Below are positions 283 to 14,684 of a DNA stretch of 20,732 nt, piece by piece. The notes under the pieces are model-generated. The model searched no databases. It saw only the letters and a list, made by a program, of their open reading frames with translations, and was not told where the DNA came from. The DNA comes from Fusobacteriota bacterium. GTDB taxonomy: Bacteria > Fusobacteriota > Fusobacteriia > JAPLKR01. Positions within the stretch are counted from its first letter, which is position 1. Each line of letters opens with the position of its first letter. The DNA lies in assembly GCA_026387965.1 (NCBI GenBank), contig JAPLKR010000069.1, positions 1 to 20,732 on the forward strand. The letters are read 5' to 3'. Both the position numbers and the translations under genes were made by a program.

Positions 283-313
283 AGTCCCAACCAACATGGC
301 TGGGACTTTTTTT
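283..313 (+). terminator. Rho-independent terminator of nagA
   Basis: The arms AGTCCCAACC and GGCTGGGACT pair over ten positions with one A-C mismatch around the loop AACAT. A run of seven T follows directly. It begins six bases after the nagA stop codon. Confidence 0.9.
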
Positions 314-557
314 GCTCAATGTCAAAAAAACCGAAACTCTTCGCACTCACATACCACAGAAAAGTTCTGATTAGTTCCTTTTTTCTCTTTTTATCCACAT
401 AGTATTGGCTAAAAGTACTCATCCATTTCTATCTATTCAAATCCGCTAAACTCGTATTCTTGGATTAATTTTTTGTTTTGGCCGTGTAATCGCTGGTAAG
501 GCACTTGAATCTTGACCGATTTTAGTCAGACTCGTGTCAATTTTATATTGAATAATT

Positions 558-586
558 TTGCTTTTTTTTTCATTTTTTAGTATAAT
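558..586 (+). promoter_or_regulatory. Sigma-A-type promoter of the ArgR fusion gene
   Basis: A -35 hexamer TTGCTT (558-563) and a perfect -10 TATAAT (581-586) are separated by exactly 17 bases. Transcription would start near 593, leaving a leader of about 25 bases. A TATTGAAT motif (546-553) that fits the left half of the ARG-box consensus abuts the -35, which would suit autoregulation, but the right half is poor. Confidence 0.8.
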
Positions 587-607
587 ATATACACTAGTAC
601 AAAAAAT

Positions 608-613
608 GAGGTG
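608..613 (+). promoter_or_regulatory. Ribosome binding site fixing the ArgR fusion start
   Basis: GAGGTG lies four bases before the ATG at 618. The alternative in-frame TTG at 558 lies inside the -35 box and cannot be on the transcript. The in-frame ATG at 606 has no Shine-Dalgarno before it. Confidence 0.75.
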
Positions 614-617
614 TGAT

Positions 618-1532
618 ATGGACAGATTGAAACGAAAAAAACTCATACGAGCTTTGATACAAAACCAACAACTAGGTTCTCAACATGAGTTAATGGATGA
701 GTTAAAAAAACAAAACATCATTGTAACTCAAGCGACACTGAGTAGAGATATCAATGAGCTTGGTATTAAAAAAATCAAAAATCACGATGGCTTCAAGTAT
801 GTTTTAGACGAAGAAAAGCTTATAATTAATACACGCGTATTATTAAATTATGAGGTCATTGAAGTAACCAACAATGAAGTCGGTATTTATATCAAAACAC
901 TACCTGGTAGAGCTAGCGGGGTTGCAGATTTAGTGGATAAAGTCAGTGAAGATCTTATTCTAACAACCATAGCGGGCGATAACACTATTTTTATAGTGCC
1001 ATACTCAATAAATGATATTTCATTGTTAAAAGAGAAAATTGAAAATTTTATTGACAACAAAGAGCAACTTGATAGAAAAAAAATAATAAAAACACTAATT
1101 AAAAACCATAAAATCGAATCACAACAAGAGCTTCTTCATCTGCTTCAATTAGAAAATATTAAAATTACTCAAGCAACCTTAAGTCGAGATATGAAAGAGT
1201 TAGGTATTAAAAAAACCTACCCAAAAAACAATGATAGTTTTTATGATTTTGATCAAAAAGAACTGATATTAAGCACCCTTGCACTGATTAGCTACGAAGT
1301 TATTGATATTGTTTCAAATGAAATCGGCGTCTTCATCAAAACGCTTCCAGGAAGAGCCAATGGTGTTGCCGAACTTATTGATACCATTAATAATAAACAT
1401 ATTTTAACTACCATTGCTGGGGATAATTCAATTTTTGTTATTCCTAAAAGCATCAAAAATATCGCGCAAGTTAAAAAAACTCTAGAACTTTTTGTTGATG
1501 GGTTTATAAATGAAGAAAGCAGAGCCCAATAG
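618..1532 (+). CDS. Tandem-fused double arginine repressor (ArgR-ArgR)
   Basis: This 304-residue protein is two full-length ArgR/AhrC repressors in one chain; the family is normally about 150 residues. Half 1 (residues 1-147) and half 2 (about 150-304) each carry a winged-helix DNA-binding domain with the signature TQATLSRD..ELGIKK (37-52 and 184-199) and a C-terminal oligomerisation/arginine-binding domain with KTLPGRA.GVA (93-103 and 241-251) and TTIAGDN.IF (116-125 and 264-273). By eye the halves are about half identical. The C-terminal helix of half 1 runs into the N-terminal helix of half 2 through only a few polar residues. Both halves have GDN where well-studied ArgR proteins have GDD in the arginine pocket. 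ArgR normally works as a hexamer that represses arginine synthesis or activates catabolism; a fused chain could build an equivalent from three copies (inference). The gene stands alone between two terminators. No frameshift or stop separates the halves, so the fusion is real in this sequence. Confidence 0.93.
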   Translation: MDRLKRKKLIRALIQNQQLGSQHELMDELKKQNIIVTQATLSRDINELGIKKIKNHDGFKYVLDEEKLIINTRVLLNYEVIEVTNNEVGIYIKTLPGRASGVADLVDKVSEDLILTTIAGDNTIFIVPYSINDISLLKEKIENFIDNKEQLDRKKIIKTLIKNHKIESQQELLHLLQLENIKITQATLSRDMKELGIKKTYPKNNDSFYDFDQKELILSTLALISYEVIDIVSNEIGVFIKTLPGRANGVAELIDTINNKHILTTIAGDNSIFVIPKSIKNIAQVKKTLELFVDGFINEESRAQ

Positions 1533-1660: not shown

Positions 1661-1767
1661 AATTCTAGAATTCTATATCTTTTAGCAATCCGCTATAATA
1701 TCCTCATCTTTGTTATCCTTAGTTCGATTTTTTATTGCAAATAAATATGGCAACCCTAAACTTCCCG

Positions 1768-1797
1768 TAATACCCCTCCGCAAGCGGAGGGGTATTA
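1768..1797. repeat. GC-rich perfect hairpin inside the HD-GYP pseudogene
   Basis: TAATACCCCTCCGC pairs perfectly with its complement over 14 bases around a two-base AA centre. It lies at the point where similarity to HD-GYP proteins fades, just after the VNAFIKFQSG segment on the - strand. Its base composition differs sharply from its neighbours, suggesting an inserted palindromic element. There is no T run on either side, so it is not a normal terminator. Confidence 0.65.
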
Positions 1798-2770
1798 GAC
1801 CCGATTGAAACTTAATAAAAGCATTCACAACATCCGGATCAAAATGTTTACCACTCTCGGAGATAATTATGCGTTTGGCATCCTCAAATGAAAAAAACGC
1901 TTTTATAAACTCTTTTAAGGTCAATGTATCATATAACATCAACTAACGCCATTAATCGCCCACACACGGGGATTTCTCCCCCTATTATACCTTGCGTATA
2001 ACCAGTTCCATCCCATTTTTCATGATGTGTATAGGAAATGATTTTTGCCATTTTTATGAATTCATTTGAAGAATCATATTTTTCTGCTTTTTCCATAGTT
2101 TCTTTACCAATTTCAGTATATTTTTTCATATATTCAAACTCTTGAAGCGATAATTTGTTCGTTTTATGTAGTATTGAGTCAGAAATATTAGTTTTGCCAA
2201 TATCGTGCAGTGGAGTCGTCTTTTATGGCATTTCAATTTCAATACCTGTCAAATACTTTGAATACTTTGACATACGACTCAAACTTGTTTCGAGTACCTT
2301 CATTAATTCGCCCGTTCTCATTATATGCTCTCCTGTTTCATTATCACGTGTCTCTGCAAGTGAAATAAGTAGTACTTGCATCCCTTTTTGTACCACCTGT
2401 AATTATTGAGTTCTCTCTAAAACCTCAATTTCAAGATTTTTAGTTAATTGTTCCAAGGCCTCTGAAGCTTCTTTTCTTTCCGTCACATCCGAATACATGC
2501 GCGCAAGATAGCGACCCTCGTCTAACTCTGCAATAAGTGAATGAATAACAGCATAAAAGAATCTATCAATTTTTTTTCCACTTAATATTTCCAAGTATTT
2601 TCGGTTTATTGTTATTTTTTCAACTGATATGAGTGAGTTTTCAATCAAAAAAATAATCTTTTTCAAAATGCAGTAGCAGCGGGTCTCCTATGGAGATCAA
2701 ATTCTCTAAATTTAAAGAGCTCTCTAAACGCGCGATTTACAAAATACAATTTTTTCGCAGCTAGATTATA

Positions 2771-2810
2771 GTGTAGTGTAGTGTAGTGTAGTGTAGTATA
2801 GTATAGTATC
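2771..2810. repeat. Pentanucleotide tandem repeat (GTGTA/GTATA)
   Basis: Five perfect GTGTA units (2771-2795) are followed by two GTATA units and a GTATC unit. On the - strand the array encodes a run of Tyr, Thr, Leu and His in the first PAS-like region of the pseudogene, between DTAIL and NLAAKKLYF. Each gain or loss of one unit shifts the reading frame. Confidence 0.9.
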
Positions 2811-3242
2811 GCAGTGTCACTGTTTTCAATCAGACTTTTAAATCTTTTCACACTAGATTTTATTTGTTTTTCAAGCTTTAATGGTTCAGTTGAATCAATA
2901 TATAACTGTATAATTGCAATAAGGGCATCATGCCCATCTAAAGGAGGAAATGTGTGTATTGCCACTGCGTTGATAGGGCTTAACTCATTTTCATATATAC
3001 GTACACACTTGTAGGCAACTCGTCACGCTTAACAATATCTAAAGGCCTTCTAAAATTCTCAATCATTTTACGACATGCCATTCTTGGGATATTTATATCC
3101 TCTGGTATAAGATTATTGGTAAAAATAACTTCAAAATTATCTGGACGAAAGATATTTGGAGAATAAGGAAGCGTGTGAACAATTTCAGCAAATACTTTAT
3201 TTGTAATCAACTCATTTAGCGTTATCATGCTTCCCCTCCTCT

Positions 3243-12599: not shown

Positions 12600-12983
12600 A
12601 TGTCGCTTATTTTATTAATTCTCGGCGTTGCTACCGGTGGCGCTATTGGCACTTTTATTAGATTTTTCATATCCTCTATTGTAAAAAAAGTTCATTTCAA
12701 ATACGCTCATATTGGTACGCTGATCGTCAATATTTCTGGATGTTATTTCATTGGGTTTTTCGCTATTTTTTTTACGTTCTATTTAAATACGTTTTGGAAA
12801 GATTTGGTTATTACTGGAATTTTGGGCGGCCTTACTACTTTTTCTTCATTTACTTTAGATTTTTACAAACTCCACTCTGAAAATAGATATCTCCATATTT
12901 TACAATACTTTATCATTACACTCATTGGAGGTGCTGCTGCTCTTCTTTTAGGTATTGCAACAGCACATGTTTTTCATTTATAA
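12600..12983 (+). CDS. crcB: Fluoride channel CrcB/Fluc, first subunit
   Basis: Fluc proteins are small four-helix membrane channels that assemble as antiparallel dimers and let toxic fluoride out. The 127-residue chain has all family signatures: GGAIGTFIRF (13-22) in helix 1, GTLIVNISGCYFIG (39-52) in helix 2, and GGLTTFSSF in helix 3 with the pore phenylalanines, then a fourth helix to the end. Positive charges cluster in the loop after helix 1 (Arg, three Lys), with more after helix 3. By the positive-inside rule these loops are cytoplasmic and both termini outside. It starts 16 bases before its paralogue and heads the crcB-crcB-udk-udk operon. Confidence 0.95.
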   Translation: MSLILLILGVATGGAIGTFIRFFISSIVKKVHFKYAHIGTLIVNISGCYFIGFFAIFFTFYLNTFWKDLVITGILGGLTTFSSFTLDFYKLHSENRYLHILQYFIITLIGGAAALLLGIATAHVFHL

Positions 12984-12998
12984 TTATAAGGAGGAGCC

Positions 12999-13394
12999 AT
13001 GCCTAAACTCTATTTTTTTATACTCGCTGTGTTAGGGGGCGCACTTGGAAGTGTATGTCGATTCCTTTTTGCTTACGCCAATACGCTTATTCTTCCACAC
13101 GACACCTTTATTGCAACACTACTTGTCAACATCTTAGGATGTTTAGTCATTGGTTATCTCTTTGTTTTTGTTAATTTAAAAAAACATCCTTATTTAGAGG
13201 TCTTTAGTGTGGTCGGGTTTTGTGGAGGTTTTACAACTTACTCTTCTTTTATGCTCGACAATTACCAACTGATTACTGCTGGACGAATTGAAATGTTTTT
13301 GCTATATTTTTTTATTTCTATCATTATCTGTTTTGTTTTTGTATATATCGGAGCTTTCGCAGGTCACATCATTCATAGAGAATATAAAGAATAG
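12999..13394 (+). CDS. crcB: Fluoride channel CrcB/Fluc, second subunit
   Basis: A 131-residue paralogue of the preceding gene with the same four-helix pattern: GGALGSVCRF (14-23), ATLLVNILGCLVIG and GGFTTYSSF. One pore-lining phenylalanine of the TTFSSF box is tyrosine here. Charges are distributed in the opposite way to the first subunit: Lys near the N-terminus, two Lys in the short loop between helices 2 and 3, and Arg/Lys at the C-terminus. This predicts both termini inside. The pair should therefore form an obligate antiparallel heterodimer, as for other adjacent crcB pairs in Firmicutes. The start has AAGGAGGA upstream; the stop TAG is part of the ribosome site of the first udk. Confidence 0.95.
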   Translation: MPKLYFFILAVLGGALGSVCRFLFAYANTLILPHDTFIATLLVNILGCLVIGYLFVFVNLKKHPYLEVFSVVGFCGGFTTYSSFMLDNYQLITAGRIEMFLLYFFISIIICFVFVYIGAFAGHIIHREYKE

Positions 13395-13404
13395 GAGAAA
13401 ACAT

Positions 13405-14049
13405 ATGTCTACATCTCATTTAAACACCTTATTTATTGGAATTGCAGGAGGATCTGCAAGTGGCAAGACTACTGTTGTTAAAAAGGTAATGGCCTCACTT
13501 AAAACGTCTGAAGTGGCTCTTCTTGACCTTGATTCTTACTATAAATCTTTTTCAGAACTTTCTGACTTGGAGCGTACAAAAATTAATTTTGACCACCCAG
13601 ATTCATTTGATGTTGATCTCCTTCTCTCACATATCGCCGAGCTCAGAACTGGGAATTCTATTAAGAAGCCGACATATGATTTTTCAAGAAATACCCGCGG
13701 AGATAATACAACAACCATTCTTCCTAGCCCTATTATTATCATAGAGGGAATTTTAATTTTTGCAATCCCAAAACTTCGAGAAATTTTTGATATGAAAATA
13801 TTTGTAGATGCACCTAAAGATGTCTGCTTAATGAGAAGAATTAAACGCGATATTTTAGAACGAGGAAGAACTCTAGAAAGTGTTGAAAAACAATATTTCA
13901 ATGTTGTAAGACCTATGTATCTACAATTTATCGAACCAACAATCTATTATGCTGATATCATTATTCCAAGAGGTGGCAAAAATACGGTGGCAATTAATAT
14001 GTTGGTATCTCGTATCAAAGCTCTAATTCAAGAAAAAAAAGCACTTTAA
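13405..14049 (+). CDS. udk: Uridine kinase, first copy
   Basis: Uridine kinase phosphorylates uridine and cytidine to UMP and CMP in pyrimidine salvage. The 214-residue protein has the P-loop GGSASGKTT, the nucleoside-binding DLDSYYK and NFDHPDSFD segments, YDFSRNTR, IIIEGIL (Walker B strand), the LMRRIKRDILERGR lid and the C-terminal RPMYLQFIEPT..YADIIIPRGG. A longer reading frame runs upstream, but ATG 13405 is chosen because AGGAG lies just before it and the upstream extension overlaps crcB and matches nothing. It departs from the usual YYKD by having Ser in place of Asp. By eye it is about 60% identical to the next gene, so the pair arose by an old tandem duplication. Confidence 0.93.
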   Translation: MSTSHLNTLFIGIAGGSASGKTTVVKKVMASLKTSEVALLDLDSYYKSFSELSDLERTKINFDHPDSFDVDLLLSHIAELRTGNSIKKPTYDFSRNTRGDNTTTILPSPIIIIEGILIFAIPKLREIFDMKIFVDAPKDVCLMRRIKRDILERGRTLESVEKQYFNVVRPMYLQFIEPTIYYADIIIPRGGKNTVAINMLVSRIKALIQEKKAL

Positions 14050-14060
14050 CTGGAGGCATT

Positions 14061-14684
14061 ATGGAAAATCGAACTATTTTTATTGGAATTGCTGGTGGTA
14101 CCGCTAGTGGGAAAACCACTGTTGTCGAAAAAATTATGGATCGATTTAAAAACGAATCTGTCGAATGTCTTGAATTGGATGCCTATTATAAAGATTTTAG
14201 CCACCTCTCTCCTTCAGAACGTGACCATTTAAATTTTGATCATCCTCAATCTATAGATTTTGATCTTCTGATTAGCCATATTCAGCTTTTAAAAGAAGGA
14301 AATAAAATCGAAAAACCTATATATGATTTTGGTACGCATCTTAGAACCTCTCAAACAGTCACTATTACACCTAGAAAAATAGTCATAGTAGAGGGCATTC
14401 TTATATTTTCTAACTCTAAAATTAGAGAGCTTCTAGATATGAAAATATTTGTTGATGCAGCACCAGATATTCGATTGATGCGGCGAATTGAGCGTGATAT
14501 GACCGAACGAGGAAGAAGCCTAGAAAGTGTCAAAGCGCAATATTTTAAAACTGTTCGACCGATGCATCTTGAATTTATCGAACCAACCAAGCAGTACGCA
14601 GATATTATTGTTCCACGTGGGGGTGATAACCACGTCGCTATCAGTATGATTCGAAGTCGAATTCGATATCTTTTAGAAAAATAA
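14061..14684 (+). CDS. udk: Uridine kinase, second copy
   Basis: A 207-residue paralogue of the preceding gene, starting 12 bases after it with GGAGG upstream of ATG 14061. Motifs are the P-loop GGTASGKTT, LDAYYKDF with the standard YYKD, LNFDHPQSIDFD, YDFGTHLR, IVEGILIF, LMRRIERDMTERGRSLESV and RPMHLEFIEPTKQYADIIVPRGG. It is closer to textbook uridine kinases than copy 1 at the YYKD and EPTKQYAD positions. Both copies keep every P-loop and lid residue I can check, so both are probably active. They may differ in preference or regulation, but that cannot be read here. It ends the operon at a bidirectional terminator. Confidence 0.94.
   Translation: MENRTIFIGIAGGTASGKTTVVEKIMDRFKNESVECLELDAYYKDFSHLSPSERDHLNFDHPQSIDFDLLISHIQLLKEGNKIEKPIYDFGTHLRTSQTVTITPRKIVIVEGILIFSNSKIRELLDMKIFVDAAPDIRLMRRIERDMTERGRSLESVKAQYFKTVRPMHLEFIEPTKQYADIIVPRGGDNHVAISMIRSRIRYLLEK

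Follow-up and report, generated by a model that had tools for sequence, protein, structure and literature searches.

The window analysed here, a stretch of 20,732 nucleotides, carries on the forward strand a single uninterrupted open reading frame (618-1532) of 304 residues with two complete ArgR modules, each made of a DNA-binding domain and an arginine-binding/oligomerisation domain (Table 1). The frame starts with the ATG at 618 and is open up to the stop codon at 1530-1532. As the first-pass annotation had stated, no stop or frameshift separates the two halves, A and B, in the assembled sequence. The boundary between the modules lies near 1065, where FIDNKE closes half A and QLDRKK opens half B.

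Table 1. Features of the tandem ArgR locus and of other parts of the window.
Feature	Position	Strand	Basis
Stem-loop followed by a T run, 3' of the upstream amidohydrolase gene	283..315	+	sequence, stem listing
Candidate promoter region with TATAAT (581-586) and weak ARG-box-like words	547..591	+	sequence
Ribosome-binding site GAGGTG (608-613) and spacer before ATG 618	608..617	+	sequence
Tandem ArgR protein, 304 aa, single ORF	618..1532	+	ORF, Pfam and NCBIfam profiles
Half A: winged helix aa 1-66, linker, C-terminal domain about aa 75-145	618..1064	+	profiles, alignment, model match 2zfz
Half A recognition-helix segment TQATLSRDINELGIKK	726..773	+	sequence, alignment
Half A arginine-site motif IAGDNT; Asp121 kept, next Asp replaced by Asn	969..986	+	alignment
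Junction: last helix of A and first helix of B	1008..1106	+	structure models, start-codon scan
Half B: winged helix about aa 150-211, C-terminal domain aa 213-293	1065..1529	+	profiles, alignment, model matches 2p5m and 2p5l
Half B recognition-helix segment TQATLSRDMKELGIKK	1167..1214	+	sequence, alignment
Half B arginine-site motif IAGDNS; Asp269 kept, next Asp replaced by Asn	1413..1430	+	sequence, alignment
PAS/HD-domain sensor gene fragments in several frames; HD_5 (1929-2129), weak PAS_8 (2663-2965)	1682-3228	-	
Pentanucleotide repeat TAGTG, 7.8 copies	2769-2807		
CrcB/Fluc fluoride-channel genes, adjacent pair	12600-13394	+	
Two adjacent uridine-kinase-family genes (13402-14049, 14061-14684)	13402-14684	+	

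The stem-loop and T run after the upstream amidohydrolase gene suggest that the ArgR gene is probably transcribed on its own. The promoter scan reported no promoter in the candidate region, and the ARG-box-like word at 557-574 scores 13/16, which is not above background, with eight equal-scoring words in the window. No in-frame ATG, GTG or TTG occurs between TTG 1023 and ATG 1191 (1026-1190), so half B alone would not be readily translated; TTG 1023 itself falls in the final helix of half A and lacks an evident ribosome-binding site. The idea that half B is translated separately was rejected for want of a suitable standard start codon, and, given standard start codons, half B seems to exist only within the fused chain.

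Elsewhere in the window, the PAS/HD-domain sensor gene is probably decayed, and the TAGTG repeat lies inside it, where gain or loss of copies would shift the frame. The two uridine-kinase-family genes are apparently paralogues. The adjacent CrcB/Fluc genes are a known kind of pair.

The presence of two complete ArgR modules in one frame, proposed in the first-pass annotation, was borne out by three profiles, each of which matches twice. These are PF01316 for the N-terminal winged helix (73.5 and 68.8 bits, curated cut-off 27, E value 5e-38), PF02863 for the C-terminal oligomerisation/arginine domain (63.9 and 56.8 bits, curated cut-off 25, E value 8e-33) and NCBIfam argR_whole (223 bits, cut-off 130). 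Both halves carry TQATLSRD, which corresponds to the family DNA-recognition motif TQAT[LVI]SRD. Aligned with 77 further ArgR sequences, both halves retain 18 of the 19 positions at which at least 90% of those sequences agree; the one exception is position 33, where glycine is replaced by Asn in both. Asp121 of half A is equivalent to Asp128 of Escherichia coli, whose pocket residues are numbered Asp128 and Asp129 (PMC7248756). The second Asp of the arginine pocket is Asn in both halves, as it is in 16 of the 77 relatives. Profiles, conserved residues and fold all place both halves as full members in the ArgR/AhrC family (PF01316 and PF02863, TIGR01529). The family's known proteins have one module of about 150 residues per chain and assemble from three or six chains, whereas here two modules share one chain of 304 residues, and the protein is, as far as its sequence can tell, a variant architecture of the family in which each module still reads as ArgR by the family sequence tests.

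The fold was examined in an AlphaFold2 monomer model built from a four-row alignment, which is of modest confidence (mean pLDDT 68, pTM 0.37). The modelled C-terminal domain of half A (residues 69-145) matches 2zfz (Z 12.5) and that of half B (residues 213-293) matches 2p5m (Z 13.1), while the DNA-binding domain of half B matches 2p5l, AhrC on DNA (Z 12.5). The junction is predicted as one continuous helix (residues 131/134-163, local pLDDT about 50-70) in this model and in a single-sequence fold, which was poor (pLDDT 57) and served only for the recurrence of the junction helix. The placement of the halves relative to each other is not readable from either monomer model. A long continuous helix might keep the two modules apart, in which case the protein could trimerise through one half and build larger assemblies, for example of twelve modules or as open chains, that would bridge or loop DNA. 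Such linked trimers are unlikely in our judgement, the confidence in the junction helix being low.

Between the two halves, identity is 53% at the protein level and 62% at the DNA level. Synonymous change between them is saturated in the codon comparison and pN is 0.26, which indicates that both halves are under purifying selection. In the DNA- and arginine-binding segments 37 of 43 positions (86%) are identical, as against 37 of 104 (36%) elsewhere; together with the retention of the conserved positions, this likeness of the functional segments is an argument that both modules work and prefer similar DNA and ligands. These observations bear on a near-neutral tandem duplication, in which one half works and the other is tolerated. 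The tandem is known from one genome only and no regulon was identified for it, as such a duplication would allow, but the low pN at saturated synonymous change and the near-invariant residues kept in both halves speak against it, and we regard it as quite improbable.

In two maximum-likelihood trees (40 and 76 rows), the halves are sister sequences on a long stem (support 100/99), and the end branch is longer for half B (0.72-0.82) than for half A (0.35-0.43). Both halves also have the unusual residues N33 and T116. The sister relation and the concentration of likeness at functional sites indicate that the tandem arose on the lineage of the host genome, when a single argR gene was duplicated internally, head to tail. 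The first-pass annotation had described the halves as two diverged paralogues, a description that the trees, the shared N33 and T116 and the contrast between functional and other positions show to be misleading; a fusion of old paralogues was rejected since the halves are sisters in both trees. The closest single ArgRs found belong to one other phylum, probably Calditrichota (the phylum of genomes G170 and G389), at 31-43% identity, and their grouping with the halves has support of 94/94 and 88/92 in the two trees. In those checked, the linker has the same length as in the tandem halves. The 29 carrier genomes of this phylum hold single modules only and no tandem, in contrast to the host.

The host genome is a draft of 1.79 Mb in 141 contigs, 95.5% complete, and the contig starts at the first base of the window, which leaves room for an artefact, whether two separate argR genes joined in assembly or a contaminating contig. 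The longest word common to the halves is 13 bases, too short to make a repeat-driven misassembly likely, and a chimera of this kind was rejected. The RecN protein encoded on the same contig has its best matches, about 85 apart from itself, all within its own class, with scores of up to 361 bits inside the class vs at most 284 outside, which indicates that the contig belongs to the host genome; a contaminant was rejected on the same matches. Either artefact is very improbable. The host does not appear to be Gram-positive, as RecN groups with its own class, probably Fusobacteriota; no 16S sequence turned up in the assembly, and the name is therefore only a probable one.

The tandem is the sole ArgR gene found in the host genome, where neither domain has any other match. 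No other ArgR above the family cut-off was found in the host phylum (98 species, one class). In a domain-wide sample the PF02863 domain occurs in 37 of 389 genomes, and two such domains in one frame occur only in the host. One large phylum with 344 ArgR-bearing genomes gave no tandem among the matches listed, at the head of which a tandem would be expected as the highest-scoring match. The first-pass annotation had proposed looking in databases for double ArgRs of about 300 residues, and across about 410 ArgR-bearing genomes sampled no other was seen among the matches listed. Plasmids and phages gave single modules only, and a protein-query scan of genome contigs gave no relative. A degenerate DNA codon pattern found no tandem argR in 84,980 species; this is a weak negative of low sensitivity, because, of the 64 argR loci sampled, only 10 match the pattern at its first site (53 of 64 at the second). 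One Enterococcus record labelled as a phage (PQ520094.1, L007; 3.2 kb) carries two argR-like genes on opposite strands and looks like DNA of the phage's host. In the open literature searched, no description of a natural ArgR tandem was found, in keeping with the earlier remark that the arrangement lacks an apparent precedent. A survey of 761 genomes describes ArgR as architecturally monolithic, with low architectural diversity (PMC5882156). Taken together, the data point to an architecture that is real and rare within a well-known family, and in which selection maintains both modules.

Ornithine carbamoyltransferase (OTC) and arginine deiminase (ArcA) are usual targets of ArgR. Neither was found in the 95.5%-complete genome. 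The sole carbamoyltransferase found is an aspartate carbamoyltransferase (346 bits, cut-off 237), which falls below the OTC cut-off and whose gene adjoins that of a dihydroorotate dehydrogenase subunit. This enzyme (L011:1483-2553) has about 50 extra C-terminal residues with a CxxxxC...CxxC pattern, which may belong to a fused PyrI zinc domain. A transporter regulon was rejected, since no PF00497 binding protein was found in the genome. The three absences are probable rather than certain because 4.5% of the genome may be missing. Perfect ARG-box palindromes number five in the genome, mostly intragenic, where about 7 are estimated from base composition, and ARG-box searches gave no convincing operator or regulon and nothing above background.

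In ArgR two trimers pair, and the interface between them holds six arginine sites; across it the N-terminal domains touch the C-terminal domains (PMC7248756). In Bacillus-type ArgR arginine drives the step from trimer to hexamer (PMC4865122). Our best mechanism, a plausible one drawn from these known assemblies, is a three-chain pseudo-hexamer. Each chain would supply two C-terminal and two DNA-binding domains, so that three tandem chains could form the core of six units for which ordinary ArgR needs six chains. The tether would take over part of the arginine-driven joining of two trimers and make the association partly permanent, and the assembly would bind paired operator half-sites and respond, through the conserved pocket, to arginine or a ligand like it. 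That the protein is a genuine ArgR-family transcription factor, arisen by duplication of argR in one frame and forming such a pseudo-hexamer from three chains, has in our estimate slightly better than an even chance. A stricter version, with an obligate three-chain pseudo-hexamer, mixed A/B ligand pockets, arginine-independent assembly and, because the organism would lack the usual arginine pathways, a rewiring to another regulon, is conceivable and rather doubtful.

Two related ArgR modules acting together are also found in Lactococcus lactis, where ArgR binds DNA and AhrC senses arginine (PMC6586332). By analogy, one half of the tandem might mainly bind DNA and the other mainly sense arginine, as an obligate heteromer locked by fusion, and the faster evolution of half B in the trees would suit such a division of labour. 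The L. lactis proteins, however, come from two separate genes and have specialised roles, whereas here one gene encodes halves whose recognition-helix and ligand motifs are almost identical and complete, and which are sisters rather than old paralogues. We therefore hold a division of labour to be improbable. With near-identical reading and sensing motifs in both halves, the gain from the pseudo-hexamer would more likely be fixed stoichiometry or easier assembly.

A duplicated chain that replaces a symmetric oligomer is known from the double-motif LAGLIDADG homing endonucleases. The likeness is one of principle only, as that family is unrelated to ArgR; Foldseek matches to LAGLIDADG endonucleases were weak (TM-scores below 0.3). 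ArgR is a textbook example of regulation in which a ligand brings two trimers together. With a natural covalent double, that step could be tested directly: whether assembly, DNA binding or both require arginine, and whether the symmetry can be broken pocket by pocket. The tandem also shows that internal duplication is a route of evolution open even to a family that has been called architecturally monolithic.
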